DNA of 64,000 bases from Candidatus Laterigemmans baculatus (GTDB taxonomy: Bacteria; Planctomycetota; Planctomycetia; Pirellulales; Pirellulaceae). The stretch lies in NCBI RefSeq assembly GCF_010367455.1, contig NZ_WRPR01000042.1, positions 186,001 through 250,000 on the forward strand. Reading direction: 5' to 3'. Positions within the stretch are counted from its first letter, which is position 1; every line of letters begins with the position of its first letter. The position numbers and the translations under genes were made by a program. Below the pieces are notes generated by a model. It did no database searches. It was given only the letters and a program-made list of their open reading frames with translations, and was not told where the DNA came from. Shown here in pieces: positions 1-15,618 of the stretch.

Positions 1-1
1 A

Positions 2-487
2 GGCTACCTTCTGACCTGCGTAATAGCTGTTGCCTTCGTGGGTGCTGCAGCCTGGGCTTCTTGGCAGTTTGCGGAATCGTGCGTGCTGTTCGCCAGGCTC
101 AGGAACGCGGTTTCCGCCCCAGCACGAATCGTGTCCTTGCGGCGTGAAGGCGGAAAGCGTCCCTATATCGTCGCGACCTATACATACGAGTTTGAAGGGA
201 AGGCCTTCAGTTCGGACACGCGGGGCCACTTTTCGTGGAGCAAGTACCGGGACGGCGACCTGAAGCGTTTAAAGGAAAATAGAACGCCTCTGTCGTGCTT
301 CGTGGACCCGGACGATCCCTCCGTGAGCGTGCTCGATAACACGTTTTCCCTCAGTCGCTTTGTCGTTAGTTTGGCCTTCGCATCTGTATTCCTGGGTGGG
401 GCGTTGGTTACGTCCGTTGTCGCGTATAACGAGATTAGACATCAGTTGATACCGATGTCAGCTACGCGGCCTGAGGATGTGCCATGA
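2..487 (+). CDS. DUF3592-like membrane protein, 5' truncated by window edge
   Basis: The reading frame is open from the first bases, so the true start lies upstream; 161 residues are visible. A hydrophobic segment begins at the edge, followed by a soluble stretch with ARIVSLRREG, Y-x-Y-E-F-E-G and CFVDPDDPSVSVLD, then a second hydrophobic helix near the end (SLAFASVFLGGALVTSVVAY). Two helices bracketing a beta-rich loop with a Y-x-P-D-D/N-P-x-x-x-V-L-type motif is the layout of DUF3592 proteins, whose function is unknown. A GTG at 38 is an internal candidate start, but it would cut the first helix. It lies in the proposed island. Confidence 0.6.
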   Translation, partial: GYLLTCVIAVAFVGAAAWASWQFAESCVLFARLRNAVSAPARIVSLRREGGKRPYIVATYTYEFEGKAFSSDTRGHFSWSKYRDGDLKRLKENRTPLSCFVDPDDPSVSVLDNTFSLSRFVVSLAFASVFLGGALVTSVVAYNEIRHQLIPMSATRPEDVP

Positions 488-609
488 CTTTGGCCGGGGC
501 CCCTACGCACCGGTGTTGCTCGTCACCAGAGGGCAGGGCGATACCATGCACCAGAGCGGGCGGAACTTGGCACAGCGGAAATTAACCACCGCCGATCTGC
601 GGCATTCGG

Positions 610-1038
610 ATGGTTGAAAACAAAAGCGGACGCATGTCCTCGATTGCTCGACGGTTGGTTTACATTGCTGCCGCAACGCTTCTGGTCGGTATGGCGATTG
701 CCATCGTCGTTGTAGTTCGTGCTGTCAATAGGTCGCTCGTGGCGGAGGAGAATTTTCAAGCATTCTTCCATGCCCAGCAAGCGACCGTGGCATACGTAGA
801 ACAATACGACGGGCGATGGCCCAGGTCATGGGACCATCTGCGTGCGGTGCGGCCAAAAGCGGATTTCGACTGGGTGGCCGAGCATGTGAGCTTTGATTTC
901 GCCGCCGATCCAGACGAAGTCGTAGATCAGACTCCCGAAACGTTTACCGCAATTGAACCGGATCGCCCCTGTTTCAGAATTGACGACTTGGTCCAAAGCC
1001 TAATCGATACACTGAGGAAACATCGCAAAATTGATTGA
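610..1038 (+). CDS. membrane-anchored hypothetical protein (planctomycete WP-SWDxL type)
   Basis: This 142-residue protein has a single N-terminal transmembrane helix (about residues 14-36) and a periplasmic part with an F-x-A-x-Q-A-x-x-A-Y-x-E-x-x-D-G-R-W-P-x-S-W-D-x-L pattern. Small planctomycete proteins of this style are common and uncharacterised; the helix followed by a 'GxWPxSW' stretch faintly resembles pseudopilin-like proteins, but no prepilin cleavage site is visible. ATG at 610 was taken; ATG at 634 is an alternative and would leave a shorter N-terminus before the helix. No function can be assigned. Confidence 0.65.
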   Translation: MVENKSGRMSSIARRLVYIAAATLLVGMAIAIVVVVRAVNRSLVAEENFQAFFHAQQATVAYVEQYDGRWPRSWDHLRAVRPKADFDWVAEHVSFDFAADPDEVVDQTPETFTAIEPDRPCFRIDDLVQSLIDTLRKHRKID

Positions 1039-1061
1039 CTTCAGCGGATTCAGCACCAGGC

Positions 1062-1268
1062 ATGACAAAGGGAGTACTCCTGGTTCCCGCCGACACCAGG
1101 AACGGAAAGGTGATGCTCGTTGGGACGACGTTGCTTTTTTCAGGCGTCGTGGCGTTGATTCACTACTGCCCGATGTTTTTCATGTCGCGACCAACAGCGT
1201 ATGTTTGGTCGCGGTCGCATGAAAATTTGAGAATACCCCCTTCACAGTCGGCATTCCTTGCTCCCTAG
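1062..1268 (+). CDS. possible small one-helix membrane protein
   Basis: A 68-codon frame starting at ATG 1062 encodes a short N-terminal stretch, one hydrophobic helix (LVGTTLLFSGVVALIHYC) and a polar tail. A TTG start 27 bp upstream would overlap the preceding gene. Its stop codon shares the tetranucleotide CTAG with the stop of the convergent gene on the other strand. There is no recognisable family. It is listed because of the hydrophobic segment and its position in a run of small membrane-protein genes; it may be non-coding. Confidence 0.35.
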   Translation: MTKGVLLVPADTRNGKVMLVGTTLLFSGVVALIHYCPMFFMSRPTAYVWSRSHENLRIPPSQSAFLAP

Positions 1269-1753
1269 CGAGGAGTTCGTGCGGGGAGCCGGTCCCGAAA
1301 CCGGTCTCGGACGTGCCCCGGCCAAAGCACGATTACTGGGTAGGCGGATGCAGCGAAGAGAGCAAGGCAGGACAGCAGTTGAGACCGGAAGGATGAGCCA
1401 GCTTCTGAATCCGCAGAATCCATGGCGAGGGACAGCAGCACGGCCAATGCACCGCCAGTGGCCGTCGCGATCGCAAAAATCCCAACGAGCAAAGTGAATC
1501 GGCGAACCGGCCCCAGGCGAAAGTACAAACCGGTCGCGAAGGTCAGCCAAAGGAACGGGGAGAAATCCAGCGATGATTCGCCAAGCAGATGTGCTGGGAT
1601 GCTAACAAGCCCTATGTGGACCGCAAATAGGCCTACGAACCAGAGTGCCGTAGCGATTTCTGGGCGGGCGGGCCTGAGCAGCGAGGTTCCCGGAGTCGGT
1701 TCCGGTGCAGGCGTGGCCGGGGTTTCGTATGGGTTGAGCGTGGGGGCATTCAC
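1265..1753 (-). CDS. integral membrane protein with NPYETP N-terminus
   Basis: The frame is open much further upstream, but the start is placed at GTG 1753, which gives the N-terminus MNAPTLNPYETPATPAPEP. Several other small planctomycete membrane proteins begin this way, and a longer start would run into the next gene. The 162-residue product has a proline-rich leader of about 30 residues and then roughly four hydrophobic helices (for example ALWFVGLFAVHIGLVSIPA and FTLLVGIFAIATATGGALAV). Function is unknown. It is one of three consecutive minus-strand genes in the island coding for small membrane proteins with similar starts or layouts. Confidence 0.6.
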   Translation of the reverse strand: MNAPTLNPYETPATPAPEPTPGTSLLRPARPEIATALWFVGLFAVHIGLVSIPAHLLGESSLDFSPFLWLTFATGLYFRLGPVRRFTLLVGIFAIATATGGALAVLLSLAMDSADSEAGSSFRSQLLSCLALFAASAYPVIVLWPGHVRDRFRDRLPARTPR

Positions 1754-1860
1754 CTGGCGTTGATCATTGGCATCCGTCCTTTCAGCCAATTGTGTTCCTT
1801 CGGCCTGTCTGACTCGTTGCCTGGGCAAACAGGGCGGTAGGTATATGGCGTGCGACGGCC

Positions 1861-2316
1861 TCACAGGCTCATCGATCCTCTTCCGAACCATCCGAATCCC
1901 CCGTCGCAGGAGCGTTGGACGGAGGAGCGGTTGACGGAGGAGCGGTCGACGGAGGAGCGGTCGACGGAGGAGCGGGTCGGTATTGGCAGTGGGGGCCGCG
2001 ACCTGCCCTCGTACTGGACTGCCGGAATTGTCAGCCCATATAGAACCAGGCAAATGGCAACGACAGTGGCAGTCTCGACTGCCGTCCATCGCCGAGTGGA
2101 AATCGGATGCAAGTAAGAGCTGCCCGAAACAGAGGCAGCCCACCAGGCAAAGACGCATGCATAGAACGCATACATCCAGCCAATCACTCCAAACGCCCTC
2201 ACGCACCCAAGGGCGATGGCGAGGAGGACAACGGTGAAGAGCACGACCGCGAAGGAAAACTGCGGTCTGGCTTTCCCTGCTCGATCTGTTTTAGGTGGTG
2301 TATACGGATTGGACAC
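1861..2316 (-). CDS. small membrane protein with NPYTPP N-terminus and RSSVD-type repeats
   Basis: The start is placed at GTG 2316, giving MSNPYTPPKTDRAGKAR; upstream codons in frame do not look like protein. The 151-residue product has a short NPYTPP leader, about four hydrophobic helices (FAVVLFTVVLLAIALGCVRAF, MYAFYACVFAWWAASV, VATVVAICLVLYGLTIPAV region) and a Ser/Arg-rich tail in which RSSVD or RSSVN repeats four times, encoded by a perfect-looking 15-bp tandem repeat (1918-1977). The tail probably varies in length between strains. Function unknown. Confidence 0.55.
   Translation of the reverse strand: MSNPYTPPKTDRAGKARPQFSFAVVLFTVVLLAIALGCVRAFGVIGWMYAFYACVFAWWAASVSGSSYLHPISTRRWTAVETATVVAICLVLYGLTIPAVQYEGRSRPPLPIPTRSSVDRSSVDRSSVNRSSVQRSCDGGFGWFGRGSMSL
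1918..1977. repeat. 15-bp tandem repeat, 4 copies, in coding sequence
   Basis: Four head-to-tail copies of gacggaggagcggtc (the first and last copies differ by a base or two) lie in frame inside the small NPYTPP membrane protein gene and produce its RSSVx repeats. Because the unit is a multiple of three, copy-number change would keep the frame. Confidence 0.9.
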
Positions 2317-2368
2317 AACGGGACTCCGGCAAGAAACGGCTGTAGATCGACACCACCGCACGCGATAG

Positions 2369-2719
2369 TCATCGCCACGTGCTGATCCAAAGCCACGCAA
2401 GATACAGCAAATACCCAGCTACGACGGTGCGGACGGTGAGGCTAAAAAGCGAGTAGCCGAGTCGGCCTTTCTCTCGACGGACTGGAAAAGGCAGTTCGCA
2501 TTTCCAAAACTCTCCAGAATTCAATCCGAAGTGATATTGTTCTTCGGCAGTCTCGACCTTCAGCACATAGCCGGGAAAAATGAAGTTTGAGCGAACGGAG
2601 TACAAAATAGCTTCGCGAATATGCTCATATTCGACACGCCAGTCACCGCACTCCAAATGGTCATCGAATACCTTCAGCGTGCCGCGGCGAGAAAGCAGCC
2701 AGTTCGGGCCATATCGCAT
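2369..2719 (-). CDS. hypothetical protein, PH-like domain with C-terminal membrane helix
   Basis: The start is put at ATG 2719, preceded by a good GGAAGG Shine-Dalgarno eight bases upstream; the longer open frame to 2788 has no support. The 116-residue product starts MRYGPNWLLSRRGTLKVFDD and continues as alternating beta strands (VEYEHIREAILYSVRS, GYVLKVETAEEQYHFGL) like a small bacterial PH-like domain. It ends with a transmembrane helix (VVAGYLLYLAWLWI). The domain call is by pattern only. It sits between two minus-strand small-protein genes with short gaps. Confidence 0.5.
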   Translation of the reverse strand: MRYGPNWLLSRRGTLKVFDDHLECGDWRVEYEHIREAILYSVRSNFIFPGYVLKVETAEEQYHFGLNSGEFWKCELPFPVRREKGRLGYSLFSLTVRTVVAGYLLYLAWLWISTWR

Positions 2720-2811
2720 CTGATCGCCTTCCGCGATCGTTGCTTTGGTTTTGCATCTATGGAGAAGCGAGGGCATTCTGGATACCACGGAATTTCGGGG
2801 GCTTCACGTCC

Positions 2812-3186
2812 TCAATCGCGGACGATCTCGTATTCAGCCACTCGATCGCTTTCGTCAAACCGAATCACTAGCCACTCAGAGTCGATACTGATGAACCCGC
2901 GTTCGGGGCCGAGCCAGTAAACCAGGTCCCAGTCCCGAAAGTACTCGGTCGGCGGCGGTTCGCCCAGGAGTTCGACGACTTCGGCCCGTGACAGACCAGT
3001 GAGTGTACCGCGAACGACCAGGTGATCCGCCATTTCCAGCCGAATACCGGTTCCGACCAGAGTGTCGTCTCTCCAGGCTACAGGATCCAGCGGCTGCCCA
3101 CGAAACCACCAGCCCGAGAGAGTCAAAGCCGCCGCTACCGCCAGACCGCACGCGGTGATCGCCGCTGTCCGTCGTCGGATTGCCAT
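2812..3186 (-). CDS. secreted BamE/SmpA-like small protein
   Basis: ATG 3186 was chosen over the TTG three bases upstream. The 124-residue product has an N-terminal hydrophobic signal/anchor (AAITACGLAVAAALTLSGWWF) and then the pattern L-T-G-L-S-R-A-E-V-V-E-L-L-G-E-P...YWLGPERGFISIDSEWLVIRFD...VAEYEIVRD. A 'G-x-x-R-x-E-V-x-x-L-L-G-x-P' helix followed by strands ending in an 'R-F-D-x-x-x-x-V-x-x-x-x-V' motif is typical of the BamE/SmpA fold. That fold is widely used for small periplasmic proteins, so this need not be BamE itself. Confidence 0.55.
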   Translation of the reverse strand: MAIRRRTAAITACGLAVAAALTLSGWWFRGQPLDPVAWRDDTLVGTGIRLEMADHLVVRGTLTGLSRAEVVELLGEPPPTEYFRDWDLVYWLGPERGFISIDSEWLVIRFDESDRVAEYEIVRD

Positions 3187-3260
3187 CAAGCCGCGATCCA
3201 GGTCAGAGGAAGAAGACTTCCAGGCCGAGGATCAAATGCAATGCAGTACGCGAATGGACC

Positions 3261-3653
3261 TCACAGGGGAGGATTGATCACTCGCTCCAGAATCTGAATC
3301 GTCAAGTACAGAACGAACCAAGATCCGAAGTTCAGAGACAACGCGGTCAAAAATTGCCTGCGGAGCCACTTCCGTCCCGCAAGCAAATTGGCCATAGATC
3401 CGACAGCCAAGGTGGCCGTCATCAGCACGGCTACTATCGCGAATCGTAATGGTGTAGTTCGCTCAGTCTCGCTGACTTCGATCGCCTGGATTACCCAGGA
3501 GACGATGCCCACCGCCAGCAGCCCTGCGAGAAGGAAGCTGAGAGTAGCGGGAATGATGGCGAATCGAAACCGGCTGCCGACGCCATGGTCCTCGATCGTA
3601 GGAGGAGGATCGGTGCCAGTGGCCGCTTCAGGTGGCAAATATGGATTGGGCAT
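3261..3653 (-). CDS. small membrane protein with NPYLPP N-terminus
   Basis: This 130-residue protein begins MPNPYLPPEAATGTDPP, the clearest case in the window of the NPYxPP leader. The leader is followed by four predicted helices (FAIIPATLSFLLAGLLAVGI, FAIVAVLMTATLAVGSMANL, FLTALSLNFGSWFVLYLTIQ and an amphipathic end). Nothing catalytic is visible. It is the last of a run of minus-strand small membrane-protein genes in the island. Confidence 0.65.
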   Translation of the reverse strand: MPNPYLPPEAATGTDPPPTIEDHGVGSRFRFAIIPATLSFLLAGLLAVGIVSWVIQAIEVSETERTTPLRFAIVAVLMTATLAVGSMANLLAGRKWLRRQFLTALSLNFGSWFVLYLTIQILERVINPPL

Positions 3654-3880
3654 GTGGACTTCCCGGAGATCAAAATCGGTCTGGGGGAGCCATCAGCGGA
3701 GGCAGAGCCACCGTCATCTCAGGACAGGATGAGCCGTTGACGCATTCCACCGGAAGGCTCCAAACACGATTATGCGGGATTTGTGTTGGTGATGGTGCTC
3801 CGGCATCGACAAATACGCCTTGACGCCACAGGAGGGGGCGGGGTAGTGAGGCGAGGGTTCCTCAACAGAAGGCGTCCGGA

Positions 3881-4165
3881 ATGATAAAAAGCCGCGTAAT
3901 TTATCGCTGGATGCTCGTCGCCGTCCTCTCGGCCTGCACACTTACGGGGCAAGTGGGCTGCCGATCCGGGCTTCAGCGAGGTGGGTTCAGCGGGCTGACT
4001 CCGCCAAATCAACCTCTCGTGGCTCCCCCGCCCCAAGGCACGGTCGGAAAAGTGAAGGAAGCCGCCGCTGAAACGGCTAGAGTTGCGGGACTCGCAATTG
4101 TCGGTGTGCTCTACCTTGGCCTCTGCCTCTGGGTAGATGATGACGACGAGGACGGATTCTCATGA
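3881..4165 (+). CDS. small lipoprotein-like membrane protein
   Basis: This 94-residue product has a basic N-terminus, a hydrophobic stretch (WMLVAVLSACTLTGQVGC) with cysteines that could act as a lipobox, a Pro/Gly-rich linker and then a C-terminal hydrophobic helix (VAGLAIVGVLYLGLCLWV) ending in a very acidic tail (DDDDEDGFS). Small proteins with a signal peptide, one helix and an acidic end are frequent in planctomycetes; function is unknown. Confidence 0.5.
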   Translation: MIKSRVIYRWMLVAVLSACTLTGQVGCRSGLQRGGFSGLTPPNQPLVAPPPQGTVGKVKEAAAETARVAGLAIVGVLYLGLCLWVDDDDEDGFS

Positions 4166-4293
4166 TGCTTAGCCGCCGTCCTTCCTCTTCATGCCCAGCC
4201 TATGGTGGTTCTGCAAACGCGGTCCGGGCATGGGGCAGAAACGCCTGCTAAACTGCAGGGGCAGTTTGTTCCTGCCCATTGGATAGCCGCCCC

Positions 4294-5232
4294 GTGAACG
4301 CAAGCCGACAAAAGCGACTGAGGCTGACCAGGTCCAGCCTTCGCGGTGGACTATTTGCCGTCACCGTCTTCGCAGTCTGGTTCGGACTGCACATGCAGAG
4401 CGTGAAGCGGCAGCGAGAGGCGATCGAGGCACTCAGTCAGTACGGGGCCACAGTCCTCTACAACTACGGTGTCGCGAGCAATCCGCCGTACTGGGAAGCT
4501 GGTCTATATGAGACCGAAGTGAATTCGCCCGTCCCGGATTGGTTGCTCTCCACCCTGGGCCACGACCACTTCCACTCCGTCGGTCAGCTCAGTACCTATA
4601 GCACTTGGGGGGACAGCCCGGACGGGCAGTTTTTCATTTCCCGCGATATGCTACAGCACCTGAGGAGCTTGCCTCGCCTTCAGGTTTTGAAGCTCGACCG
4701 GACTCCGGTAAATGATGATGACTTGAGCGTGATCCGAAGCCTGAGCCAACTTCAAAAACTGCACCTCGGTCGTGCCGCTGAGGTGACTGACGAGGGTGTC
4801 GCGTCGCTGTCGCAGCTTCGCGATCTTGAATATCTTGAACTGAACTACACCCGCCTTACAGATAAATCCGTCGAGGCACTATCACGCTTACCTCGCTTGA
4901 GTGTGCTGCGGCTGTCCGGGCAGTTTTCAGACGACTCTCTTCGGCACGTCGGCGGAATGGCACAGCTTCGAGAGCTAACGCTCGGCGGTGTCGAAAGAAC
5001 TGGCATCAGCAATGAAGGCCTCGTACATCTTCGCGGCTTGACGGATCTGGAGGAACTTAACCTTTATAACTCGCGGGTTACCGAAGAGGGCCTGCGGCAC
5101 TTGAGCCACATGCGGAATCTTCGGAGACTAGATTTGCGAAAGACCGATGTTGAGGACGCAAGTTGGCTATTTCATCGCCTCCCCAAATGCGAAATCGTGA
5201 CCTTGTCACGCACCTGGCGTCCGCAACCGTGA
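4294..5232 (+). CDS. membrane-anchored leucine-rich-repeat protein
   Basis: GTG 4294 was taken as start, since it puts the typical planctomycete leader (R-L-T-R-S-S-L-R-G-G-L-F-A-V-T-V-F-A-V-W-F-G) near the N-terminus; TTG 4279 is possible. The 312-residue product has one N-terminal helix and from about residue 120 onward a series of leucine-rich repeats of about 24 residues (LQVLKLDRTPVNDDDL, LEYLELNYTRLTDKSVEAL, LEELNLYNSRVTEEGLRHL, LRRLDLRKTDVED). The 'L-x-x-L-x-L-x-x-T-x-V/I-x-D-x-x-L' repeats match the internalin/LRR-RI-like class abundant in planctomycetes, presumably binding proteins at the envelope. Confidence 0.75.
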   Translation: MNASRQKRLRLTRSSLRGGLFAVTVFAVWFGLHMQSVKRQREAIEALSQYGATVLYNYGVASNPPYWEAGLYETEVNSPVPDWLLSTLGHDHFHSVGQLSTYSTWGDSPDGQFFISRDMLQHLRSLPRLQVLKLDRTPVNDDDLSVIRSLSQLQKLHLGRAAEVTDEGVASLSQLRDLEYLELNYTRLTDKSVEALSRLPRLSVLRLSGQFSDDSLRHVGGMAQLRELTLGGVERTGISNEGLVHLRGLTDLEELNLYNSRVTEEGLRHLSHMRNLRRLDLRKTDVEDASWLFHRLPKCEIVTLSRTWRPQP

Positions 5233-5322
5233 GGCGTCGATGACAAGTGCCATTTGCGGGTGTGCACGAAAAAGCAGAGCGTGGTGGACGGGCACACTGA
5301 GATCACGAACGGATGAGGCCGT

Positions 5323-5865
5323 ATGACCCCCGCATCCCGAACACCTGAAGGCTGGCCGAATCGCTGCCCCATTTGCGGCGAAGCCGTAACGATTGATCCC
5401 TCGCTACCGCCCGGCGATGCCCCTTGCCCGCGTTGCGGTTGCCTCCTCTGGTTCGATTCTCGCTGGATCGATGAGTTGGATTTTCTCGTGCCCGAGGCAT
5501 GTTCGGCGGATTTTAGCCAATGCACGAAGGAAGAGGCCATCAGCCGGATGGTCGATTCACTGGTGGAGGTCGGGGCCATCCCCGCCGAGGTGGGCGAAGA
5601 TGCTGCAGAACTGGTGCTGAAGAGAGAGCAGGTGGGGACAACCGGTATTGGCCGAGGATTTGCCGTGCCCCACGCAAAGCATCCTGACCTGAAACGTGTC
5701 GTTGGATGTATTGCTCGCTCCAGCCACGGCATCGACTTTGACAGCCTGGACGGAGAGCCCGTGCATCTACTGATCCTGCTCCTGTCTCCGGCTGACCAGT
5801 TCGACGCTCACATGCGGGCGTTGGAGCGGACCTCGACGTGGCTCCTTGGCCAACCGTTACCGTAG
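5323..5865 (+). CDS. zinc-ribbon plus PTS EIIA (fructose/Ntr type) protein, short C-terminus
   Basis: The 180-residue product starts with a small zinc ribbon (CPIC at 15-18, CPRC at 35-38) followed by a type-2 EIIA domain from about residue 65. It carries the phosphorylatable histidine context G-I-G-R-G-F-A-V-P-H-A-K-H (His117). The frame stops about 30-40 residues earlier than usual for this domain, just after MRALERTSTWLL, so the last helix is missing. No EI, HPr or EIIBC gene is visible nearby, so it is likely regulatory rather than a transporter. Whether the missing end is real or a frameshift cannot be settled here. Confidence 0.65.
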   Translation: MTPASRTPEGWPNRCPICGEAVTIDPSLPPGDAPCPRCGCLLWFDSRWIDELDFLVPEACSADFSQCTKEEAISRMVDSLVEVGAIPAEVGEDAAELVLKREQVGTTGIGRGFAVPHAKHPDLKRVVGCIARSSHGIDFDSLDGEPVHLLILLLSPADQFDAHMRALERTSTWLLGQPLP

Positions 5866-5989
5866 TGGCTGCGACTCAGCTCTCCGCAGTTAAAAGGGGC
5901 CGTGCGTTTGTTCAGAAAATGTCTCGGGCAGGCTGGTAGGCACAAAACGTTAATACAGCAATCGCACATGAACCAGGGAGAAGAGGTGA

Positions 5990-7288
5990 ATGACGATGGA
6001 GAACCGGTTACGGCTTCCTGAGGTGGAGCAGCGAGTTTGCGACGTTGCCTCTGAGCAACTGGGTATTTCCCGCCCCAAAATCTCTCCAAACGATCGACTG
6101 ATCGAAGACTTGCAGTGCGACAGTCTCAGCATGGTTGAACTGCTGATGGAACTGGAAGATGAATTCGCAGTTACGCTGCCAAACGATCCTCCCAATTCGA
6201 TCTACAAGGCAGTATTCACTCGCCAGCCGTTTAGAATTTCGGACCTCGCCGAATTGATCTATCTCCAGCAGGGAAGCGGTACCCCTGAGCGAAAGCGATG
6301 GCGGCAACCGAAAACGAAGCCTCCGGTGACCATCTCGATGCCGTTCAGCCAGCTTGACGGGCAGTGGGAAGGTCTGGCGGCCACTGAACGTCGGCTTTTC
6401 GAGCCGATGGAGGCCGAGGGACCCTTTGATCAGTACCGCAGGCGTTCTGATGGAATGCGGTGCATTCTGATCCCTTCAGCTTTCGTCGAGATCGGTTGCG
6501 AATCGCCTGATGGCCTCCCCGACGAACAGCCACAGCACGCCGTCCACCTGGACGCCTTTCTTATGGATGCCGAGCCGGTGTCGACTACTGCCTACTGCCG
6601 TTTCCTGAACTCCATCGGCGAGGTCCCACCCGAGGTGGTGGCGGATTGGTTTGTCGTCGATCCGCAGGATCACCGCATCGAGCATCTCCTCATCGCTCGC
6701 AAAGCCACAGAGTGGCGGCCCGTACTGAGGACCGAGAAATGGCCGATGATTCTCGTGTCCTGGTTCGGTGCCAATGCATATTCCCTGTGGGCGAATGGAC
6801 AGGACTGGAAGGACTATCGAGATTCCTCGGGCGACGAGTTTCACTGTTTTCTGCCCACTGAAGCTCAGTGGGAATATGCCGCACGGGGCGTTCGCTCTCA
6901 GCCGTTTCCATGGGGCGACGAGCCGCCCACCCAACAGCATATGCGGTATGGCCTGCATCGCAAATCAGAAACATACAACGCTGATACGCTTCCGATGGCC
7001 GACGTTAATGAGCAGCTCGGGATGTCACCGTTCGGGCTCCAGCACATGGCGGGCAACGTCTGGCAGTGGTGTCGCGACTGGTATGACAAGGGGTTTTACT
7101 CGAAACCAGAAGCCAACCGAGCGAATCCACTGAATCGACTTGCCACTCAGGTCCGGAGCGAACGGGGCGGCAGTTGGATCGGCCCTGCTGAACTCTGCCG
7201 CAGCTCATATCGCCGGGGCCGCCCTCCAAGTGCTCGTGGCCGCTGCCTGGGATTCCGCTGTATCAGCTCTGCTGCGGACTGTTCTTGA
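5990..7288 (+). CDS. acyl carrier protein fused to FGE-like (SUMF1) domain
   Basis: This 432-residue fusion starts with an acyl-carrier domain (about residues 8-90) with the phosphopantetheine attachment motif CDSLSMVELLMELEDEF; Ser45 is the modifiable serine. From about 150 to the end is a formylglycine-generating-enzyme-type fold: GMRCILIPSAFVEIGC, LPTEAQWEYAARG, FPWGDE, GNVWQWCRDWYD, RGGSW and GFRC. Of the two cysteines that bind copper in true FGE, the first position is glycine (GGSWIGPAELC), so sulfatase activation is unlikely. An EgtB/PvdO-like oxidation acting on an ACP-bound substrate is a reasonable inference, not shown. It lies in the island. Confidence 0.75.
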   Translation: MTMENRLRLPEVEQRVCDVASEQLGISRPKISPNDRLIEDLQCDSLSMVELLMELEDEFAVTLPNDPPNSIYKAVFTRQPFRISDLAELIYLQQGSGTPERKRWRQPKTKPPVTISMPFSQLDGQWEGLAATERRLFEPMEAEGPFDQYRRRSDGMRCILIPSAFVEIGCESPDGLPDEQPQHAVHLDAFLMDAEPVSTTAYCRFLNSIGEVPPEVVADWFVVDPQDHRIEHLLIARKATEWRPVLRTEKWPMILVSWFGANAYSLWANGQDWKDYRDSSGDEFHCFLPTEAQWEYAARGVRSQPFPWGDEPPTQQHMRYGLHRKSETYNADTLPMADVNEQLGMSPFGLQHMAGNVWQWCRDWYDKGFYSKPEANRANPLNRLATQVRSERGGSWIGPAELCRSSYRRGRPPSARGRCLGFRCISSAADCS

Positions 7289-7355
7289 TCCCTGTAAATC
7301 GCCTATCGCCAGTCATCGTTGCTGGTTTAGCCAATGCGGAAGCTGGCGGCTCAGC

Positions 7356-7715
7356 TTAGAGAAATGGAACCGCCAAAGCCGGAGCGAAAATCACCAGCAC
7401 GATTATTGTGACGAACCAGAGCAGAAGGGAGCGGATCTGAGAGCCGAAGTACATTCGGAGAATTGGATTCACCGGGTGACCGGCAGCACATCGACGCTCC
7501 ACCACATCTTTTAGCTCCAGCATCAGCCCGAGCACGCACCCCACCAGCACCGCGATGAGAAACGCGGCAGCGAACGCCGTCACAGGAACGGCTGCTATGC
7601 CGCCGTTCTGCACCGCGAATTCCAGCATCCCCGCGATCACGACAAACGCAGTGACCCCAGCGGAAATCGCGATCTTCAGCACGAGCGACCGTGCATTTTG
7701 TAGAAGCTCATTCAA
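7356..7715 (-). CDS. hypothetical membrane protein with three helices
   Basis: The 119-residue product has an amphipathic N-terminus (MNELLQNARSLVLK), three hydrophobic helices (SAGVTAFVVIAGMLEFAV, PVTAFAAAFLIAVLVGCVLG, LLLWFVTIIVLVIFAPALAV) and a short basic loop with two Cys/His residues between helices 2 and 3. No family is recognised. It lies between the ACP-FGE fusion and the integrase, convergent with the fusion gene. Confidence 0.6.
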   Translation of the reverse strand: MNELLQNARSLVLKIAISAGVTAFVVIAGMLEFAVQNGGIAAVPVTAFAAAFLIAVLVGCVLGLMLELKDVVERRCAAGHPVNPILRMYFGSQIRSLLLWFVTIIVLVIFAPALAVPFL

Positions 7716-7836
7716 CGCGGACTTGAATGGAATGAAGATGTGTCGGCTCTCCGTCGAAAGGGGCTGATCAGCGGCTGGTGGTCTCGCTGTCCGGGGTCAA
7801 TCTTAGAAATTCGCGATGCCGTAGCGGTTGGGACTC

Positions 7837-9318
7837 TCATTTTGTTTCGTGACGCCCTTTCGGAGACTCGGTGTCGTGCAGAAGAGATCCTAGTCTTTGT
7901 AAGGCCTTGTCTAGCTCCTCTTGTGGTGGGTCAATGTAATGTTTTGCCGCTGTCCCGCTCGGCGTCTGTCCAAGGAATTTGATCTGTAGGCTGATCTGGT
8001 TCGATCTGTCGCCGTTATCTGCCATCAGTAGGTTTGCTGACGTCTTCCTGATGTGTTTCATTTGCAGTCGGACCTTGCGTTCCTTCGCAAAGGGAGTCCA
8101 TAGGTCTCGGATCGCATCGTGTTTGCTGATCTTCCCGTCGGGTCTCTGGTGCTCCAGCTTCCACGGTTTGCCATCCTCGCGGGTGAAGACTAACCCGTTT
8201 TCGTCGGTGCGGTACTGTTCCACCAGTTGGGCTGTCTTGTCCCATAGCTTCCATGATACGGTTGGGATGCGTTTGCCCTTCGCTTTTTTGCTCCGTTGGC
8301 GGGTAATGTAGCCCTCCCGCAGCATCTCCGGTGTCAGTGTTGCAATGTCGGACTGGTAGAATCCGCAGTTTGCCATCAGATAGGTGAAGCATTGCAGTAT
8401 TCCGGGTGCGTTGTGGAGGATGTCCTGCAGTTCCTCCTGTGTGTAATGCTCAATTTTTCCGGTGTGTACGGTTGCCTTCAAGCTTCGGATGTTGCGAGGG
8501 AGGTCGATTTGGCGTTGCTCATAAAGGTATTGCAGGAAACTTCGGGTCGTCGACAGCCGATCCCGCTGTGTGTAGGTGCTTCCTCCCTCCATCACCCTCA
8601 GATACCACCGCTCCCAAGTCGCTTCGGTGATCTGGTCCACCGTGGCTGCCGACCCCATGTGGTCGCAGAATGCGTTGACATCCCGCAGGATGTTATCCAG
8701 CCGCCCAATGCTGATCCGTTTGTCTGCTCGTTTCAGTGCCAGCCACTGGTCCCGCCAGCGGGTCAGTAGCTTTTCCTCCGGCTCTGGCTCTCGGTCGATG
8801 TCTTGAAGCAGCAACCGCCGTTGAATCGTCAGGTCTTCGCCGATGTTGCCAGCCAGCACCTTTGCCGCTTCCAGCCGCTTGTCTCGGATCTGGTCGAAGT
8901 CCTGCCCCTGCTGGTCGGCGTATTGCCTCATTCGGATTTCGTAGTTCGCGTCGGCGATCTCGGCTCGGTTCTGGTCCGCCGTCTCTGGATCTCCCATCAC
9001 TTCAACTTCCCGCTCCAGTTCGGCGATCCGCTCTCTCAGCCGGTCCACCTGGCTTTTGCCTTTGCCAGCTTCGCCGTCAATCGCCGCTTGCACGTACTCC
9101 GCCCATCGGTTGGCGGCAGCGGTGCTCCCGTCCTTGGTGTGGCTGCTGATCTCTTGCGGCTCCAGTGATAGCTCCAGCCCATGCCAGTTCTTCGCCCATC
9201 CTCGGGCTAGCTGCTTGGTCGATACTTGAAGGACATCGGACTTGCCGGTGGGGTGCCGGTATCGCTTGCTCCATTGCTTCCGGCTGGCGATCCAGCTTGC
9301 TTCGGTTCGCTTCGGCAT
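7837..9318 (-). CDS. tyrosine recombinase (phage-type integrase), variant active site
   Basis: The start is placed at ATG 9318 (MPKRTEASWIASRKQWSKRY); the longer frame to 9363 runs through repeat DNA. The 493-residue product has an arm-binding-like N-terminus, a coiled coil (VDRLRERIAELEREVEVM), a SAM-like core-binding domain (about 190-290) and a C-terminal catalytic domain. The Arg II box is present (K-H-I-R424-K-T) and so is the nucleophile Tyr461 (AKHYIDPP). The box I arginine is replaced (N-C-G-F-Y-Q-S-D-I), the HxxR histidine is Lys421, and the LGH histidine is Gln (L-G-Q). It is transcribed away from the adjacent tRNA-Val attachment remnant and is presumably the integrase that inserted the island. 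Confidence 0.85.
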   Translation of the reverse strand: MPKRTEASWIASRKQWSKRYRHPTGKSDVLQVSTKQLARGWAKNWHGLELSLEPQEISSHTKDGSTAAANRWAEYVQAAIDGEAGKGKSQVDRLRERIAELEREVEVMGDPETADQNRAEIADANYEIRMRQYADQQGQDFDQIRDKRLEAAKVLAGNIGEDLTIQRRLLLQDIDREPEPEEKLLTRWRDQWLALKRADKRISIGRLDNILRDVNAFCDHMGSAATVDQITEATWERWYLRVMEGGSTYTQRDRLSTTRSFLQYLYEQRQIDLPRNIRSLKATVHTGKIEHYTQEELQDILHNAPGILQCFTYLMANCGFYQSDIATLTPEMLREGYITRQRSKKAKGKRIPTVSWKLWDKTAQLVEQYRTDENGLVFTREDGKPWKLEHQRPDGKISKHDAIRDLWTPFAKERKVRLQMKHIRKTSANLLMADNGDRSNQISLQIKFLGQTPSGTAAKHYIDPPQEELDKALQRLGSLLHDTESPKGRHETK

Positions 9319-9350
9319 CGTGGAGGCTCTGGGGCTTGTTGTGTGTGGGA

Positions 9351-9410
9351 TTTTTACACACACAATTTACACACAAAACGGCTCTCTAGGGGGGCGAATG
9401 TGTGTAAAAA
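9351..9410. repeat. inverted and direct TTTACACACA repeats upstream of integrase
   Basis: TTTTTACACACA (9351-9362) and its exact reverse complement TGTGTGTAAAAA (9399-9410) form a 12-bp perfect inverted repeat. A third direct copy of the core (TTTACACACAAA) lies at 9366-9377. They sit between the integrase start and the attachment site, where recombinase or excisionase arm sites are normally found, and may also be the operator of the integrase promoter. Confidence 0.6.
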
Positions 9411-9441
9411 TGGACGTAAGTCCTTATTTCTCGGTGCAATT

Positions 9442-9488
9442 TTACGTTGACATCGTGGAGGTCACAGATTCGAGTTCTGTATCGCCCA
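9442..9488 (+). tRNA. 3' half of tRNA-Val(GAC), attachment-site remnant
   Basis: From the anticodon stem onward the sequence folds as a tRNA. The anticodon stem is ttacg/cgtgg (two G-U pairs) with loop TTGACAT, where U33 precedes anticodon GAC. The variable loop is aggtc, the T stem is acaga/tctgt with loop TTCGAGT, the acceptor strand is atcgccc (9481-9487) and the discriminator is A9488; CCA is not encoded. No D arm or 5' acceptor strand is found upstream, so only the 3' half is here. This is the expected scar where an integrative element regenerates the tRNA at its far end. The gene's own terminator follows directly. Confidence 0.8.
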
Positions 9489-9493
9489 CTCCC

Positions 9494-9531
9494 AAAAACC
9501 CCGCAAAGCCCAGCGTTTTGCGGGGTTTTTT
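9494..9531 (+). terminator. intrinsic terminator after the tRNA remnant
   Basis: A 14-bp perfect stem (aaaaaccccgcaaa, 9494-9507, with tttgcggggttttt, 9517-9530) closes a 9-base loop and ends in a T run. It is one of the strongest hairpins in the window and fits the native terminator of the tRNA-Val gene. Confidence 0.92.
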
Positions 9532-9684
9532 CGTTTCGGGCCCGCACCTCTTCCGGGCTCACGAAGGCTTGCACGGCTAGGCTTGATCCGGTGCTGGACC
9601 GCGGATCACACGGAGAACGCAGATGAAAGGGGATTGATGACAGAAAGTTGCAAGAAACTACAGCTCGGCTCGATTCCTATTCAG

Positions 9685-11268
9685 GGTGCGTCCCAATACT
9701 GTTCGGCACGAGAATTGCGCACTCGGCGGGTCGGCAGTCAAGTGCTGCCGATTTGACCGAGTGCGGAGCGAGCAGTGGCTAAAGCGAAGCGTGACGATCG
9801 ACTGAAGCGACCGCCGGCCGCTGCTGCGCGCACGCCCGGGCCAGAGCATCAACCCGCCAGCGATGAAAAACTCAAGATCAAAGCCGCGGATCTTCAGGGG
9901 CTGAAATACTTTAAATCGCTGCGCCCACTACTCAACCGACTCCACGAGGTTGGAACGAAGCGCGACGTCGCGGGCAATCGCGAATTGCATATGGATCAGT
10001 ACTGTGTCCTGATCCTACTTTGGCTCTACAGCCCCATCCTGACATCCCTCCGCGGCCTCCAGCAAGCGAGCGAGCTGGACAAAGTGCGCAAGCGTTTCGG
10101 CGTGGGGCGAGCCTCTCTGGGCTCCCTCTCCGAATCGGTCTCGCTCTTCGATCCCGAACCGCTCAAAGAGATCGCAGCGGAACTCTCCGAGCAGTTTCCC
10201 CAGCCCAAACAGGGACGCTTTGACGAGATCGGGAAGACGATTACCGCCGTGGATGGCTCGGTGGTCGATACGGTGGTCCGCGTGGCCCGCCTGGCGTGGC
10301 TGCCAAAATCCGGGCAGAAGACCAATTGCGGATACCGGCTGCACACGCAGTTCGAAGTTTTCCGTGGCACGGTGAGCCGAATTGACGTCACCGGCTCAAA
10401 ACCAAAAGGTGAAGCCGATGAGCGCGCCGTGCTCGCGCGAACGGTCGAGCCGGATCGCTGCTATGTGATCGATCGCGGTTATGCGAAGTTCACCCTCTGG
10501 AACGCAATTCACCAGGCACAGAGCAGCTATGTCTGCCGGGTACGGGACAATTCCGCTTATGAGGTGGTCGAGCAGCGTGAGCTGAGCGATTCGGATCGAG
10601 CGGCGGGCGTGCTGAGCGATGAGATCGTCGAGTTCGGCAAGTCGAGCAAGAAAGACTCACGCCCCGATCACATAACTCGTCTGGTTATCGTATCCGCCCC
10701 GGCACATACCAGTCGTGGCAAGTCGCGAAAGAAAGGTTCGAGCACGGGGCCCGACTGCGATGGCAAGCTGCGGATCGCGACCGACATGCTTGATATCCCC
10801 GCCGAGCTGATCGCGGAACTCTACCGATTGAGATGGTTAATTGAACTATTCTTCAGGATGTTCAAACAACTTCTCGGCTGCCGCCATCTGCTGAGCACCA
10901 AACAAAATGGCGTGGCGATCCAGGCATATATGGCAATTATCGCTTGCCTGCTGATCCTTATCCACACCGGCCGGAGTCCGACGAAGCGGACCTTCGAAAT
11001 GATCTGCTTTTATATGGCCGGATGGGCGAGTCTCGAAGAGTTGGAGCGGCATATCGAAAAACTAAAACCACAGACCGCCTAGAGATCGCGCGCGCCGATG
11101 GTGCGTGGGTCGTTTGCTGCTGCGCGGTCACCAAGAAATCGACGTAATTGACGCGGCACCCTCCGATGCTTTCGGCACTCAAGCCGCTCGTCCGATTCAA
11201 ATTCAGCGCCGGCCCCACCACTCAACCCCGTTCAGCAGCGAGCGTGCCGAACAGTATTGGGTGCGTCC
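9685..11268. mobile_element. IS4-family insertion sequence with 9-bp target duplication
   Basis: The element itself is 9694-11259 (1566 bp). Its ends are perfect 17-bp inverted repeats, CAATACTGTTCGGCACG at 9694-9710 and its complement at 11243-11259. It is flanked by the direct repeat GGTGCGTCC (9685-9693 and 11260-11268), a 9-bp target duplication. It contains one full-length transposase gene. Intact ends, intact target duplication and an intact ORF point to a recent, probably still active insertion. The right end lies two bases from the stop codon of the neighbouring hypothetical gene. Confidence 0.93.
9775..11082 (+). CDS. IS4-family DDE transposase
   Basis: The 435-residue transposase starts at GTG 9775, 81 bp inside the left inverted repeat. 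It shows the RNase-H-like DDE pattern: first Asp in ITAVDGSVVD, second in RCYVIDRGYAKF, and the glutamate in the Y-(2)-R-(3)-E-(6)-K signature of IS4 transposases (YRLRWLIELFFRMFK). The N-terminal part is basic and helical, suited to inverted-repeat binding. The frame is uninterrupted. Subgroup within IS4 not determined. Confidence 0.93.
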   Translation: MAKAKRDDRLKRPPAAAARTPGPEHQPASDEKLKIKAADLQGLKYFKSLRPLLNRLHEVGTKRDVAGNRELHMDQYCVLILLWLYSPILTSLRGLQQASELDKVRKRFGVGRASLGSLSESVSLFDPEPLKEIAAELSEQFPQPKQGRFDEIGKTITAVDGSVVDTVVRVARLAWLPKSGQKTNCGYRLHTQFEVFRGTVSRIDVTGSKPKGEADERAVLARTVEPDRCYVIDRGYAKFTLWNAIHQAQSSYVCRVRDNSAYEVVEQRELSDSDRAAGVLSDEIVEFGKSSKKDSRPDHITRLVIVSAPAHTSRGKSRKKGSSTGPDCDGKLRIATDMLDIPAELIAELYRLRWLIELFFRMFKQLLGCRHLLSTKQNGVAIQAYMAIIACLLILIHTGRSPTKRTFEMICFYMAGWASLEELERHIEKLKPQTA

Positions 11269-11270
11269 TC

Positions 11271-11852
11271 TTATTTGCTCAGCATCCCGTTAGTGGCTTC
11301 GCTCCGGACGACTTGCGAGGGCGGACCCGTTGTGGCTAACGCTTCCTTCTTTGGAGGTGAGAGAGTCACGCGGAGTTCGAAATCGGCGGGGCCGTCGCCA
11401 GAGACTCGGTGACGGCCGCCGCGGATCAACCAGTCTCCCGGCTCGGCTGGACCCTGCCCCCGCTCGGTCGTCACCCCCGCATCGAGAAAGGGATTCGGAA
11501 GTGAGCCGTGCATGACCTGGGTGTCTGCGTACCAGCAGTAGTCGAGGCGAGCATCGGCGGTGCGTTCAAGTAACAGAACGACCGTGGAACCACCCTGCAC
11601 GGTCGAGCCACCCCCGCCCGCCTTTTTGCCATCGACGAAGCCCGTCAGCTCGAGCATCCAGCCGTCCTTGGATTGCGGTATTTCCAAAGTGTATCGCCGA
11701 ACTCCCATCAGCATTTGCAGTTCCGCGGCCGAGGCAGTTGCCCAAGGGTTCTGCAGCCGGCTGAGGGCCGGCATAACGTACATCGTCACCGCGATCGGCC
11801 AAGCAACGAGGAAGCTGAGCAGCAGCAGCCAACGGATCGTCGTGCGAATCAT
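11271..11852 (-). CDS. hypothetical secreted or membrane-anchored protein
   Basis: The 193-residue product has an N-terminal transmembrane or signal segment (WLLLLSFLVAWPIAVTMYV) followed by a beta-rich soluble part with a Gly-rich loop (KKAGGGGSTVQGGSTVVLLL) and a Pro/Thr-rich end. No family was recognised. The IS element was inserted just after its stop codon (TAA at 11271-11273), so the gene itself appears intact, but any downstream terminator or co-transcribed gene has been displaced. Confidence 0.6.
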   Translation of the reverse strand: MIRTTIRWLLLLSFLVAWPIAVTMYVMPALSRLQNPWATASAAELQMLMGVRRYTLEIPQSKDGWMLELTGFVDGKKAGGGGSTVQGGSTVVLLLERTADARLDYCWYADTQVMHGSLPNPFLDAGVTTERGQGPAEPGDWLIRGGRHRVSGDGPADFELRVTLSPPKKEALATTGPPSQVVRSEATNGMLSK

Positions 11853-11916
11853 GCGGTACTCGCAGGCAGCAGTCTGGGATCTTCGGAGGGCGGGAATGGA
11901 ACTGGCAGGAATGCGG

Positions 11917-12387
11917 CTAATCTACCAGTACCCCTTCGGCTATGTGTGGTAGGTCAGCGTCGCGAACAATCCGCTGGAAATCGGCTCCCGAGCCTGGAGG
12001 GCACTCGTCTCCTGTGATGTAGGCCCAGCGGGCATCAAAAATATCGCAAAAGTCCATCAGCACCTTCCGGGCAAATCTTTCAGGGACCTCCAACCCCATG
12101 ATTAGTTCGCTGCTGCTTGTGTAGAAAACCATCGCTTGGGCAATGTCATCTCTGCTGCTCAGTTGACGTGGGTTCCAGTACACGGAATAGCTCGCGTGCT
12201 TCTCTCGTTCGAGTCGCTCGAGTAGCGAGTCCGTATCCGGATATACCGCGTCTGGCGCGTCTGAGTACTGCGGGTACTCGAATTCATCGGCACACGGTGT
12301 TCGCTCACGCATGAAGTGATCTAGAAAGCCTTCGACGTTTCGTCGGCTTCGGTCCGGAGACAAGGCATAGGTATTTACCGTGCTCAT
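11917..12387 (-). CDS. conserved-looking hypothetical protein, possibly immunity-like
   Basis: ATG 12387 was chosen (MSTVNTYALSPDRSRRN); ATG 12402 is an alternative. The 156-residue soluble protein has a compact alpha/beta look: RRNVEGFLDHFMRE, then Y-P-Q-Y-S-D-A-P-D-A-V-Y-P-D, SYSVYWNP, AMVFYTSSSELIMGLEV and AYITGDECPPGSGADFQR. Proteins with this kind of 'SVYW...MVFYT...GLEV' pattern occur as stand-alone small proteins next to polymorphic toxins, but no toxin is seen here, so this is only a suggestion. Codon use is less GC-rich than that of the neighbours. Confidence 0.55.
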   Translation of the reverse strand: MSTVNTYALSPDRSRRNVEGFLDHFMRERTPCADEFEYPQYSDAPDAVYPDTDSLLERLEREKHASYSVYWNPRQLSSRDDIAQAMVFYTSSSELIMGLEVPERFARKVLMDFCDIFDARWAYITGDECPPGSGADFQRIVRDADLPHIAEGVLVD

Positions 12388-12668
12388 AGCCTTTCGTTTC
12401 ATCGTCGTATGCGCTGGTTGGCTTCTATGGCGACGCTGATTCACTTGAGGCGTCGACTCGGACCGTGCTCCATTTTAGGGCTTGGGGTCGAGCACCGCGA
12501 ATCGGGCGGGGAGTCCGCCTGTCGTTGCCCGTGCTTGCTTCCACCGATCGCCGTGCGGCGGAGGAACCACGGAGAGCACGGAGAGCACGAAGGAAGCGTT
12601 GGGACGAATGGGTGACGCGGACGGTAAAGGGCCGCGGATCACGCGGAGACCGCGGATGAGAATTGATT
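12388..12668. other. non-coding gap with dispersed cacggagaacgc-type repeats
   Basis: No gene is supported between 12388 and the coding-like remnant at 12669. The stretch 12565-12660 contains gaaccacggagagcacgg and ccgcggatcacgcggagaccgc, degenerate copies of the dispersed repeat that also appears near 9600-9640, 40741-40880 and 52800-53400. Confidence 0.6.
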
Positions 12669-12800
12669 CCGTGACGGGAGAGTCTTCCAGCCGCGCCCGA
12701 TCGCGTACCAGCGTACGTCGGAGGGCATGATTCCGGCGTGGGAGTCGAAGCCGGCTCTGGCGGCGACAGCGGGCAGGTACGCGTAGCTCCGCTCGGTCAC
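12669..12800 (-). pseudogene. coding-like gene remnant without complete ORF
   Basis: Read on the minus strand from 12800, 44 codons give VTERSYAYLPAVAARAGFDS and then HAGIMPSDVRWYAIGRGW. The third codon positions are almost all G or C, as in real genes of this genome, and the residues look like folded protein. There is no upstream start that makes a full gene, and the frame runs on into repeat DNA before a stop near 12645. It is most simply the 3' end of a decayed gene. The parent family was not recognised. Confidence 0.35.
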
Positions 12801-12813
12801 GACTCGTTGTCGG

Positions 12814-14429: not shown

Positions 14430-15356
14430 TCAGTTTTCGTCGATCGCTCGGCCAATCGCGGAACCGATCTCCGAGCCGATTCGCGAGCCGCGTTCGCCTC
14501 CGAGAACGCCGCCGATGCTGCCACCGATGCGGGCCCCTTCGCGACGATTGCCGCGATTCCATCCCCGGTTCCAGTTGTCGTACCGGTTCCAGTTGTCATA
14601 GCGGTTCCAGCCGTCGTCCCAGTCGTAGCGGTAGCTGCGGTAGCGCGGACTCGAATCCCACTGCCACTGGCGGCCGTCACGATACCAACTGCGATCGCGG
14701 CGGCGGTCGTCCCTCCAGCGGCGGCGGTTGTCGTAGTCCTCGTACCACCAGTCTTCGTAGTCACGGACATTGTCCCGACGGCGCCCGTCACGCCAGCGGT
14801 CGTCGTCCCTCCAGCGGTCGTCGTCACGCCAGCGGTCGTCATCACGCCAGCGGTCGTCATCCCACCAGTCGTCGTAGTCGCGGCGATTCCCCCGGCGGCG
14901 ATCGTCGCGCCAGCGGTCGTCGTCGTCCCACCAGTCTCGAACTTCGTCGCGGCGGCGGTCGCCTCGCCGCCGCCGGTCGTCGTCCCCCCAGTCGTCAAAG
15001 TCGCGGCCTCGGTCGTCCCATCGGTCGCGGTCCCGGTCACTGCGGTCCCGGTCACTGCGGTCGCCTCGATCTCGGTCGTTGCGGCCGCGATCATCCCGAT
15101 CCCGGTCCCGATCGCGGTCATCCCGATCATCCCGATCCCGGTCGCGATCGCCGCGGCGGTCGCCGTCGCCGTAGTCTTCGTACCACCAGTCGGAGTAATC
15201 GCGGCGACGGTTCTCGTCTCGCCGCTCGCGGTCACCGTCCCGCGTCTGGACACGGCGATCGCCGTCACTCCGCCCGTCCCGATCTTGAGCCGTGGCGACC
15301 GTGGGCACACTCATCACCACGCTGGCGATCACCGCCGCTATCCATCTCGCTCGCAT
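14430..15356 (-). CDS. secreted Arg/Asp-rich polyampholyte protein with glycine zipper
   Basis: The 308-residue product has a clear signal peptide (MRARWIAAVIASVVMSVPTVATA, cleavage near 23). About 220 residues made almost entirely of Arg and Asp with Trp, Tyr and Gly follow: runs of DRD, repeated DDRWRD units, and recurring D-Y-x-D-W-W-Y-E-D-Y blocks. The C-terminus changes abruptly to a glycine-zipper segment (ARIGGSIGGVLGGERG then IGSEIGSAIGRAID) of the type that inserts in outer membranes. Alternating opposite charges favour disorder and condensate-like or matrix behaviour. The repeats also create long false ORFs on the opposite strand. Function unknown. Confidence 0.75.
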   Translation of the reverse strand: MRARWIAAVIASVVMSVPTVATAQDRDGRSDGDRRVQTRDGDRERRDENRRRDYSDWWYEDYGDGDRRGDRDRDRDDRDDRDRDRDRDDRGRNDRDRGDRSDRDRSDRDRDRWDDRGRDFDDWGDDDRRRRGDRRRDEVRDWWDDDDRWRDDRRRGNRRDYDDWWDDDRWRDDDRWRDDDRWRDDDRWRDGRRRDNVRDYEDWWYEDYDNRRRWRDDRRRDRSWYRDGRQWQWDSSPRYRSYRYDWDDGWNRYDNWNRYDNWNRGWNRGNRREGARIGGSIGGVLGGERGSRIGSEIGSAIGRAIDEN

Positions 15357-15618
15357 CGCTTTCCTCCTCGCCGTTTCCGGCTGCTATTTGGTTGCTGTTC
15401 GGGCGCGTGCGTAACACGTACATCCACTCCGCACGCTATCTCCCGTCTCAGCGCTTTAGGCCCGCAACCAACGTTCCACCGGTTCGGCCCGCGAATCGTT
15501 GCGAAAACAGCCGTGGCAGCGGGAGTGGTCATGGCTGAGCAGGCGATTCAAACGTCCTGCACGGACGTGGGCTGCGGGCGTCTCGCCGGATGCGCCCGAT
15601 CGCCCTCAAGGACCGGGC

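Follow-up and report, generated by a model that had tools for sequence, protein, structure and literature searches.

Proteins with the fold of the formylglycine-generating enzyme (FGE) are numerous in bacteria. In EgtB, OvoA, and SenA-like sulfoxide and selenium enzymes, the iron ligands are carried by a DinB-like domain, and noncatalytic FGE-fold platforms occur as ring proteins of type IX secretion and as variable proteins of diversity-generating elements; to our knowledge, the function of FGE-fold proteins without the copper cysteines is mostly open. For FGE itself, PMC4505483 reports altered activity upon mutation of Ser333, Cys336, His337, Tyr340, and Cys341; of these, Cys341 makes the disulfide to the substrate cysteine. 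Here, we describe a conserved two-domain protein of planctomycetes, in which an AcpP-like carrier domain with its serine is joined to an FGE fold that has no copper site and retains the cysteine by which FGE binds its substrate. Compared with copper FGE (SUMF1), the protein has the same fold (Z up to 27.9) and keeps the equivalents of Ser333 and Cys341, but it lacks the Cys336-Cys341 pair, His337, and Tyr340 and carries an acyl carrier protein (ACP) domain. PvdO, CalU17, and ToxD, which share the fold and stand in metabolite-pathway settings, were among the best structure matches, with identities to the fusion of 23%, 26%, and 28%, respectively; however, an attached carrier is absent from the titles of those entries. 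Like AcpP of fatty-acid synthesis, the carrier has a DSL serine, a four-helix fold, and an acidic helix II; it differs from AcpP in an extended stretch before the last helix (F.R...R..D) and in the attached FGE domain. In several lineages, though not in the genome of the window, the fusion lies in the gene neighborhood of RlaP, PNKP, and RNA-ligase repair systems.

The fusion gene was found in a window of 64,000 nucleotides from Candidatus Laterigemmans baculatus (NZ_WRPR01000042.1, positions 186,001 to 250,000), and the features of the gene and its surroundings are given in table 1. The first-pass annotation had described an ACP domain with its attachment serine, joined to an FGE fold, and this architecture was confirmed, in one intact reading frame, by Pfam, NCBIfam, and fold models. 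Pfam assigned residues 14-64 to PP-binding (E 1.1e-7, 32.5 bits against a cut-off of 20.8), within the region of residues 8-90 in which the carrier was expected, and residues 158-425 to FGE-sulfatase (E 5.5e-41). The NCBIfam acyl-carrier models matched residues 11-71 with a best E of 3.3e-15, under their curated cut-offs, and a PDB sequence search with the fusion protein returned both FGE chains and acyl carrier proteins. A sequencing artefact had also been considered; as the same fusion occurs in 28 genomes of two families, we concluded that it is neither an artefact nor a product of chance. The scan for promoters yielded one promoter-like site, the same number as in shuffled sequences, and the scan for terminators yielded five terminator-like sites, compared with 2.0 on average (SD 1.6) after shuffling. 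The PTS EIIA gene upstream of the fusion had no relative in the 13 other fusion loci compared.

Table 1. Position and basis of assignment of the fusion gene, its domains and key codons, and nearby genes (numbered from the first nucleotide of the window)
Feature	Position	Strand	Basis
ACP-FGE fusion gene, 432 aa	5990..7288	+	Intact ORF; two Pfam domains; domain order repeated in 28 genomes
Acyl carrier domain, residues ~9-97	6014..6280	+	Pfam PP-binding 14-64; NCBIfam ACP 11-71; four-helix model like ACP structures
Ser45 codon (DSL motif), predicted phosphopantetheine attachment site	6122..6124	+	Invariant in 28/28 fusions
Extended stretch preceding the last ACP helix, residues 64-88, FTRQPFRxxDLAE-like motif	6179..6253	+	F76, R78, R82, D85 invariant in 28/28
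FGE-fold domain, residues ~134-430	6389..7279	+	Pfam FGE-sulfatase 158-425; model like FGE, PvdO, and EgtB structures
Former FGE active-site loop, residues 392-411 (RGGSWIGPAELCRSSYRRGR)	7163..7222	+	RSERGGSW.GP..LC in 28/28 fusions
Gly398 codon, position of human FGE Cys336	7181..7183	+	FGE alignment; Gly in 28/28
Cys403 codon, position of human FGE Cys341 (substrate-anchoring Cys)	7196..7198	+	FGE alignment; Cys in 28/28
Gene upstream of the fusion on the same strand; N-terminus rich in Cys, by eye ribbon-like, and PTS EIIA-2 domain	5323..5865	+	Pfam PTS_EIIA_2
Phage-integrase-like gene, same low-GC stretch as the fusion	7837..9363	-	Phage_int_SAM_1, E 2.2e-4, 21.9 bits, just below cut-off 22.3
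DDE transposase gene	9775..11082	+	DDE_Tnp_1, E 2.1e-20

We addressed the structure of the carrier domain by single-sequence AlphaFold modeling of residues 1-130, which produced helices at 9-24, 45-59, 71-76, and 83-93, with Ser45 opening the second; the mean pLDDT was 70.5, and only the best two of five models exceeded 50. Fold comparison of this model returned named ACP structures (e.g., 1x3o, Z 11.4, rmsd 1.8, 80 aligned residues). The top match was 8xks_R, an unnamed chain of 85 residues in a large complex (Z 12.0); among the best 50 matches, many were titled acyl carrier protein, and most of the rest belonged to large complexes, as chains of comparable length that the entry titles do not specify. 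The DSL serine was kept in all 28 full-length fusions, and in helix II, E56 was invariant and E50 nearly so. In three housekeeping ACPs that were read alongside (G037, G040, and G059), the F.R...R..D-type stretch was absent. A forerunner with split ACP and FGE genes was also considered and rejected: the order-level ACP matches in these same three genomes (L032-L034) were, by eye, housekeeping ACPs beside ketosynthase-like genes. The genome of the window (G000) encodes two ACPS-type transferases (PF01648) above the cut-off.

In an AlphaFold model built with 79 FGE-like rows, the FGE region reached high confidence and the ACP part did not, since hardly any of the rows cover the ACP. The FGE part matched FGE itself (2q17, Z 27.9, rmsd 3.1, 245 aligned residues), PvdO (Z 27.5), and EgtB (4x8b, Z 24.1), and further matches included CalU17, ToxD, CarF, PorK, and variable proteins. 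The NCBIfam equivalog cut-off for PvdO (dihydropyoverdine dehydrogenase) was not reached (54.9 of 500 bits), and Pfam found no DinB family match in the protein at E <= 0.1. In the alignment to human and T. curvata FGE, with the human residue numbers counted along the motif, Ser395, Gly398, Pro399, Leu402, and Cys403 corresponded to Ser333, Cys336, His337, Tyr340, and Cys341, respectively. The substitution of the first active-site cysteine by glycine, noted previously from the single sequence, was thus borne out, and Gly398, Pro399, and Leu402 were invariant in all 28 fusions, as was Cys403, with the Ser333 equivalent also kept. This five-residue mapping indicated that the oxidase site is broken in a fixed way, while the substrate-anchoring thiol is retained. 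Across the full-length fusions, 89 positions were invariant, six of them cysteines; because these positions include E56 of the carrier helix II, both halves of the protein are under constraint. The loss of one cysteine, considered as remarkable in itself, was rejected as such: among 79 other FGE-like domains, a mixed-phylum sample chosen by similarity to the fusion family rather than at random, 57 had neither cysteine, 14 only the second, 6 both, and 2 lacked the motif, so the state with a lone second cysteine is not unusual.

The same domain order had been proposed for a search elsewhere, and it was found in full length in 28 genomes of two families. In the family of the window (f1), the fusion was present in 13 of 241 genomes, the genome of the window included, with frames of 419-472 amino acids when the ACP region was used as the query; a further genome (G237) carries a degraded copy in two frames (L082, 9484-10220), with a macro-gene fragment upstream. 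In the second family (f21), 16 of 170 genomes had the fusion at E <= 1e-60, 15 in full length and one truncated where its contig stops. Among 392 genomes sampled evenly across the phylum, 10 gave full-length matches at E <= 1e-40, 3 in f1 and 7 in f21, and two more genomes matched in the FGE part only, within much longer frames. As the DSL serine, the Gly/Cys state, and the 89 invariant positions are shared, the 28 full-length copies look like one subfamily. In the tree, the window copy falls within the f21 clade (branches 97/94 and 95/93), despite the f1 membership of its genome. It lies in positions 1-13000, where the GC content is 58.0% compared with 64.7% in the rest of the window, and integrase-like and transposase genes are nearby, which is in line with the island setting described earlier for this gene. 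Given the nesting, the low GC, and these mobility-type genes, the window copy is most simply explained as a horizontal acquisition. A viral or plasmid origin was also examined and set aside, as no match to the whole fusion was found among the viral, plasmid, and phage sequences searched: the ACP-part query, which reaches close relatives only, had no match in viral contigs; none of the 79 viral and 80 genome-contig loci kept from a search with the fusion alignment, mainly FGE-part matches, spans the whole fusion, the genome-contig matches listed being short of the true members; and no plasmid or phage record covers at least 80% of the query (partial matches in 380 plasmid and 13 phage records). 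Elsewhere in the window, we observed short repeats readable in several frames (1850-2200), a protein with CAP and dockerin-like parts and a weak match to a planctomycete extracellular signal (12814-14145; 24.1 bits against a cut-off of 25.5), an Asp/Arg-rich repeat protein of 308 amino acids whose long opposite-strand frames look like its shadow (14430-15356), and a frame of 1435 amino acids with AAA_16, HisKA, and HATPase_c domains (15499-19806).

Gene maps and Pfam scans of a selection of neighbors were used to characterize the fusion loci, and genes of RNA repair or ADP-ribose metabolism (RlaP, PNKP, RNA ligase, Thg1, R2K, macro, and PARG) were found near 14 of the 28. At L081, R2K, RlaP, the fusion, and PNKP follow in close succession on one strand, with relatives of RNA ligase, HD-kinase, and Thg1 farther upstream; L031 and L076 share the order R2K-macro-fusion, and a PARG gene lies at a distance of 2-6 kb on the opposite strand; L077 has the fusion followed by a hydrolase, a protein of 269 amino acids, and two RlaP genes, with an RNA ligase ~8 kb further; and at L073, a pair of RlaP genes lies <2 kb from the fusion. 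In the genus g94 of f21, RNA ligase and HD-kinase occur within ~2-8 kb of the fusion at 7 of 9 loci, four of which also have Thg1 and four PNKP inside the stretch read; of the remaining two, L176 carries genes of NAD synthesis together with an ADP-ribosylglycohydrolase, and L177 has none of the repair or ADP-ribose genes tested. The macro neighbor resembles DarG (PADLOC, E 3.7e-12), and the end of the macro gene is represented by fragments upstream of the fusion at L074 and of the degraded copy L082. An alpha/beta-hydrolase gene lies directly downstream at the f1 loci L074, L076, and L077 and at L082; this hydrolase is the neighbor that best hints at carrier chemistry, and its position fits the release of a carrier-bound group, on thin evidence. 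Neighboring genes otherwise vary widely between lineages. Two PcfJ-like proteins are encoded near the fusion at L180 of g94 (10669-12150 and 14482-15702).

To quantify the linkage, at least one repair or ADP-ribose gene was counted by tblastn at 14 of 28 fusion loci versus 0 of 40 control stretches of 19.9 kb (Fisher P 3e-7); this and the next three P values, for the same counts with loci excluded or merged, overstate the case, because the reference proteins were drawn from eight of the fusion loci. Positions for the control stretches were chosen by hand in 22 of the 28 fusion genomes, and the three shortest fusion loci measured 6.0, 7.3, and 15.1 kb, with the window cut at 17 kb. Excluding L074, which has a macro fragment only, left 13 positive loci (P 1e-6), and excluding also L176, which has the ADP-ribosylglycohydrolase only, left 12 (P 4e-6). 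Eight of the 14 positive loci belong to g94 and represent largely one block by descent; when this genus was counted once, 6 of 20 were positive (P 8e-4). Whole-genome searches found an RNA ligase above the cut-off in 17 fusion genomes, 11 of which have it no more than ~20 kb from the fusion; of the 22 fusion genomes with RlaP, at least 12 have a copy no more than 25 kb away. With g94 counted once, the repair gene was close in 5 of 15 and in 4 of 10 lineages, where a random place would be expected to give roughly 0.7% and 0.8%, both the lineage figures and the expectation being rough, with lineages and distances assigned by hand. In f1, RlaP was present in 11 of 13 fusion genomes versus 103 of 228 others (P 0.0055, a value that ignores common descent). 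The other 14 fusion loci, that of the window included, had none of the genes tested.

An adenylation or acyl-ACP-synthetase gene had been suggested as a neighbor to look for in other genomes. AMP-binding genes (PF00501) occur in all 28 fusion genomes, with 258 matches by per-genome counts; none of the ~150 matches listed lay within 20 kb of the fusion, with positions compared by eye, and the Pfam-scanned selection of neighbors contained no adenylation gene. An adenylation partner was therefore rejected within this scope, which agrees with the earlier remark that no PKS/NRPS partner is evident in the window, and repair and ADP-ribose genes were found near the fusion instead. Taken together, the first-pass annotation held for the ACP and FGE domains, Ser45, the glycine, the island-like setting, and the lack of an adenylation partner among the matches listed and the neighbors scanned, but not for its proposal of oxygen-dependent oxidation.

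Tentatively, and with less than even confidence, we proposed that the fusion is a carrier-tethered, copper-less FGE module that acts through thiol exchange at Cys403 and that serves a damage response where it lies near repair genes; its mechanism is inferred. Ser45 of the carrier would be charged with phosphopantetheine, possibly by one of the two ACPS-type transferases, and loaded with an acyl group or a similar thioester, which the carrier would present to the pocket of the FGE fold. Cys403 would then accept the group by thiol exchange (transthioesterification or a mixed disulfide) rather than by oxidation, and the product of a partner gene, in some genomes the alpha/beta hydrolase or the R2K ATP-grasp ligase, may release or transfer it. 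In genomes that encode the fusion among RNA-repair and ADP-ribose genes, a damage response is the process most likely to be served, and in the genome of the window, the fusion stands alone on a probably transferred stretch. The exchange chemistry draws on two domains supported by both sequence and fold, on the universal conservation of the DSL serine and Cys403 among the 89 invariant positions, on the alignment of Cys403 with the disulfide-forming Cys341 (PMC4505483), and on the downstream hydrolase of L074, L076, L077, and L082. On the other hand, the literature searched offered no report of an enzyme reaction by an FGE fold that lacks copper and has only the second cysteine, and Cys403, as one of six invariant cysteines, could be structural. 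For the damage response, the linkage (14 of 28 versus 0 of 40), the operon-like strings of L081, L031, L076, and L077, and the closeness of RNA ligase and RlaP to the fusion in the whole-genome searches argue in favor; against it stand the half of the loci without tested genes, the concentration of positive loci in g94, the slender content of L074 and L176, the origin of the reference proteins, a genome of g94 (G442) that has RlaP and no fusion, and the genome of the window, which has no RlaP, no RNA ligase, and a sole R2K match below the cut-off.

Several other explanations were weighed against this proposal. The fusion might serve as a tailoring protein in some small pathway for a lipid or metabolite, as other FGE folds without copper do in natural-product pathways, and lie near repair genes only since accessory genes share islands. 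We regard this as rather unlikely: PvdO, CalU17, ToxD, and CarF among the closest structures, the loci without tested genes, the patchy distribution with one copy out of place in the tree, and the lineage-dependent neighbors would all fit, whereas the compact one-strand arrays that separately placed f1 copies form with R2K, macro, RlaP, and PNKP, the repair block near the fusion in g94 of the second family, and the lack of a biosynthetic partner among the neighbors scanned (or of an adenylation gene within 20 kb among the matches listed) do not. Alternatively, the carrier could report the acyl-ACP state or dock fatty-acid enzymes, with the FGE fold as a noncatalytic binding platform. The AcpP-like carrier with its acidic E56 and E50, the lost copper site, and the matches to PorK and variable proteins point that way; nevertheless, the conservation of RSERGGSW.GP..LC with Cys403 in every fusion is more than a platform seems to need, and we consider a sensor or scaffold unlikely.

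It is very unlikely, in our assessment, that the carrier is a decoy or guard, luring a toxin or phage protein directed at ACPs, with the RNA-repair genes next to it dealing with other damage done by toxins. The repair and ADP-ribose neighbors, with the DarG-like macro gene, are compatible with such a role, but no PADLOC model matched the fusion and no toxin gene was seen among the neighbors scanned. Least probable of all is the earlier reading, in which the fusion would be an FGE-type enzyme that depends on oxygen and has an acyl or aminoacyl group tethered to its carrier as the substrate. It is true that the fold and the equivalents of Ser333 and Cys341 are kept; however, every one of the 28 fusions has Gly, Pro, and Leu where FGE has Cys336, His337, and Tyr340, no DinB-type domain was matched, and no adenylation partner was found among the neighbors scanned or the AMP-binding matches listed. 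Thus, on the census of these residues, oxidation was dropped as the leading reading, and thiol exchange at Cys403 was preferred.

The ACP-FGE fusion is not named in the titles and abstract openings that made up the literature searched. In a term search of the indexed text of three RNA-repair papers (PMC7824862, PMC9503650, and PMC6514570), "acyl carrier" was absent, and the one visible match for "FGE" was a journal string in a DOI; PMC9503650 has a single other match. Within this literature, the scope of which lies apart from the main survey (Burroughs and Aravind 2016), there was no sign of carrier-protein chemistry in RNA repair. What is new is the repair and ADP-ribose gene neighborhood of the fusion. 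The fusion represents a subfamily of FGE-fold proteins in which a built-in carrier comes with an active site altered in a fixed way and with gene neighbors that recur, and these three properties make its function testable. If the link with RNA repair is functional, carrier-protein chemistry would enter an RNA-repair pathway. In a more specific form, which we think decidedly unlikely, the ACP thioester would pass via Cys403 and, jointly with the R2K ligase, the repair enzymes, and macro or ADP-ribose hydrolases, modify or clear RNA ends that have been damaged, or else proteins sitting on such ends; if true, thioester chemistry would be coupled to RNA damage, with a carrier-protein arm at work in RNA repair.
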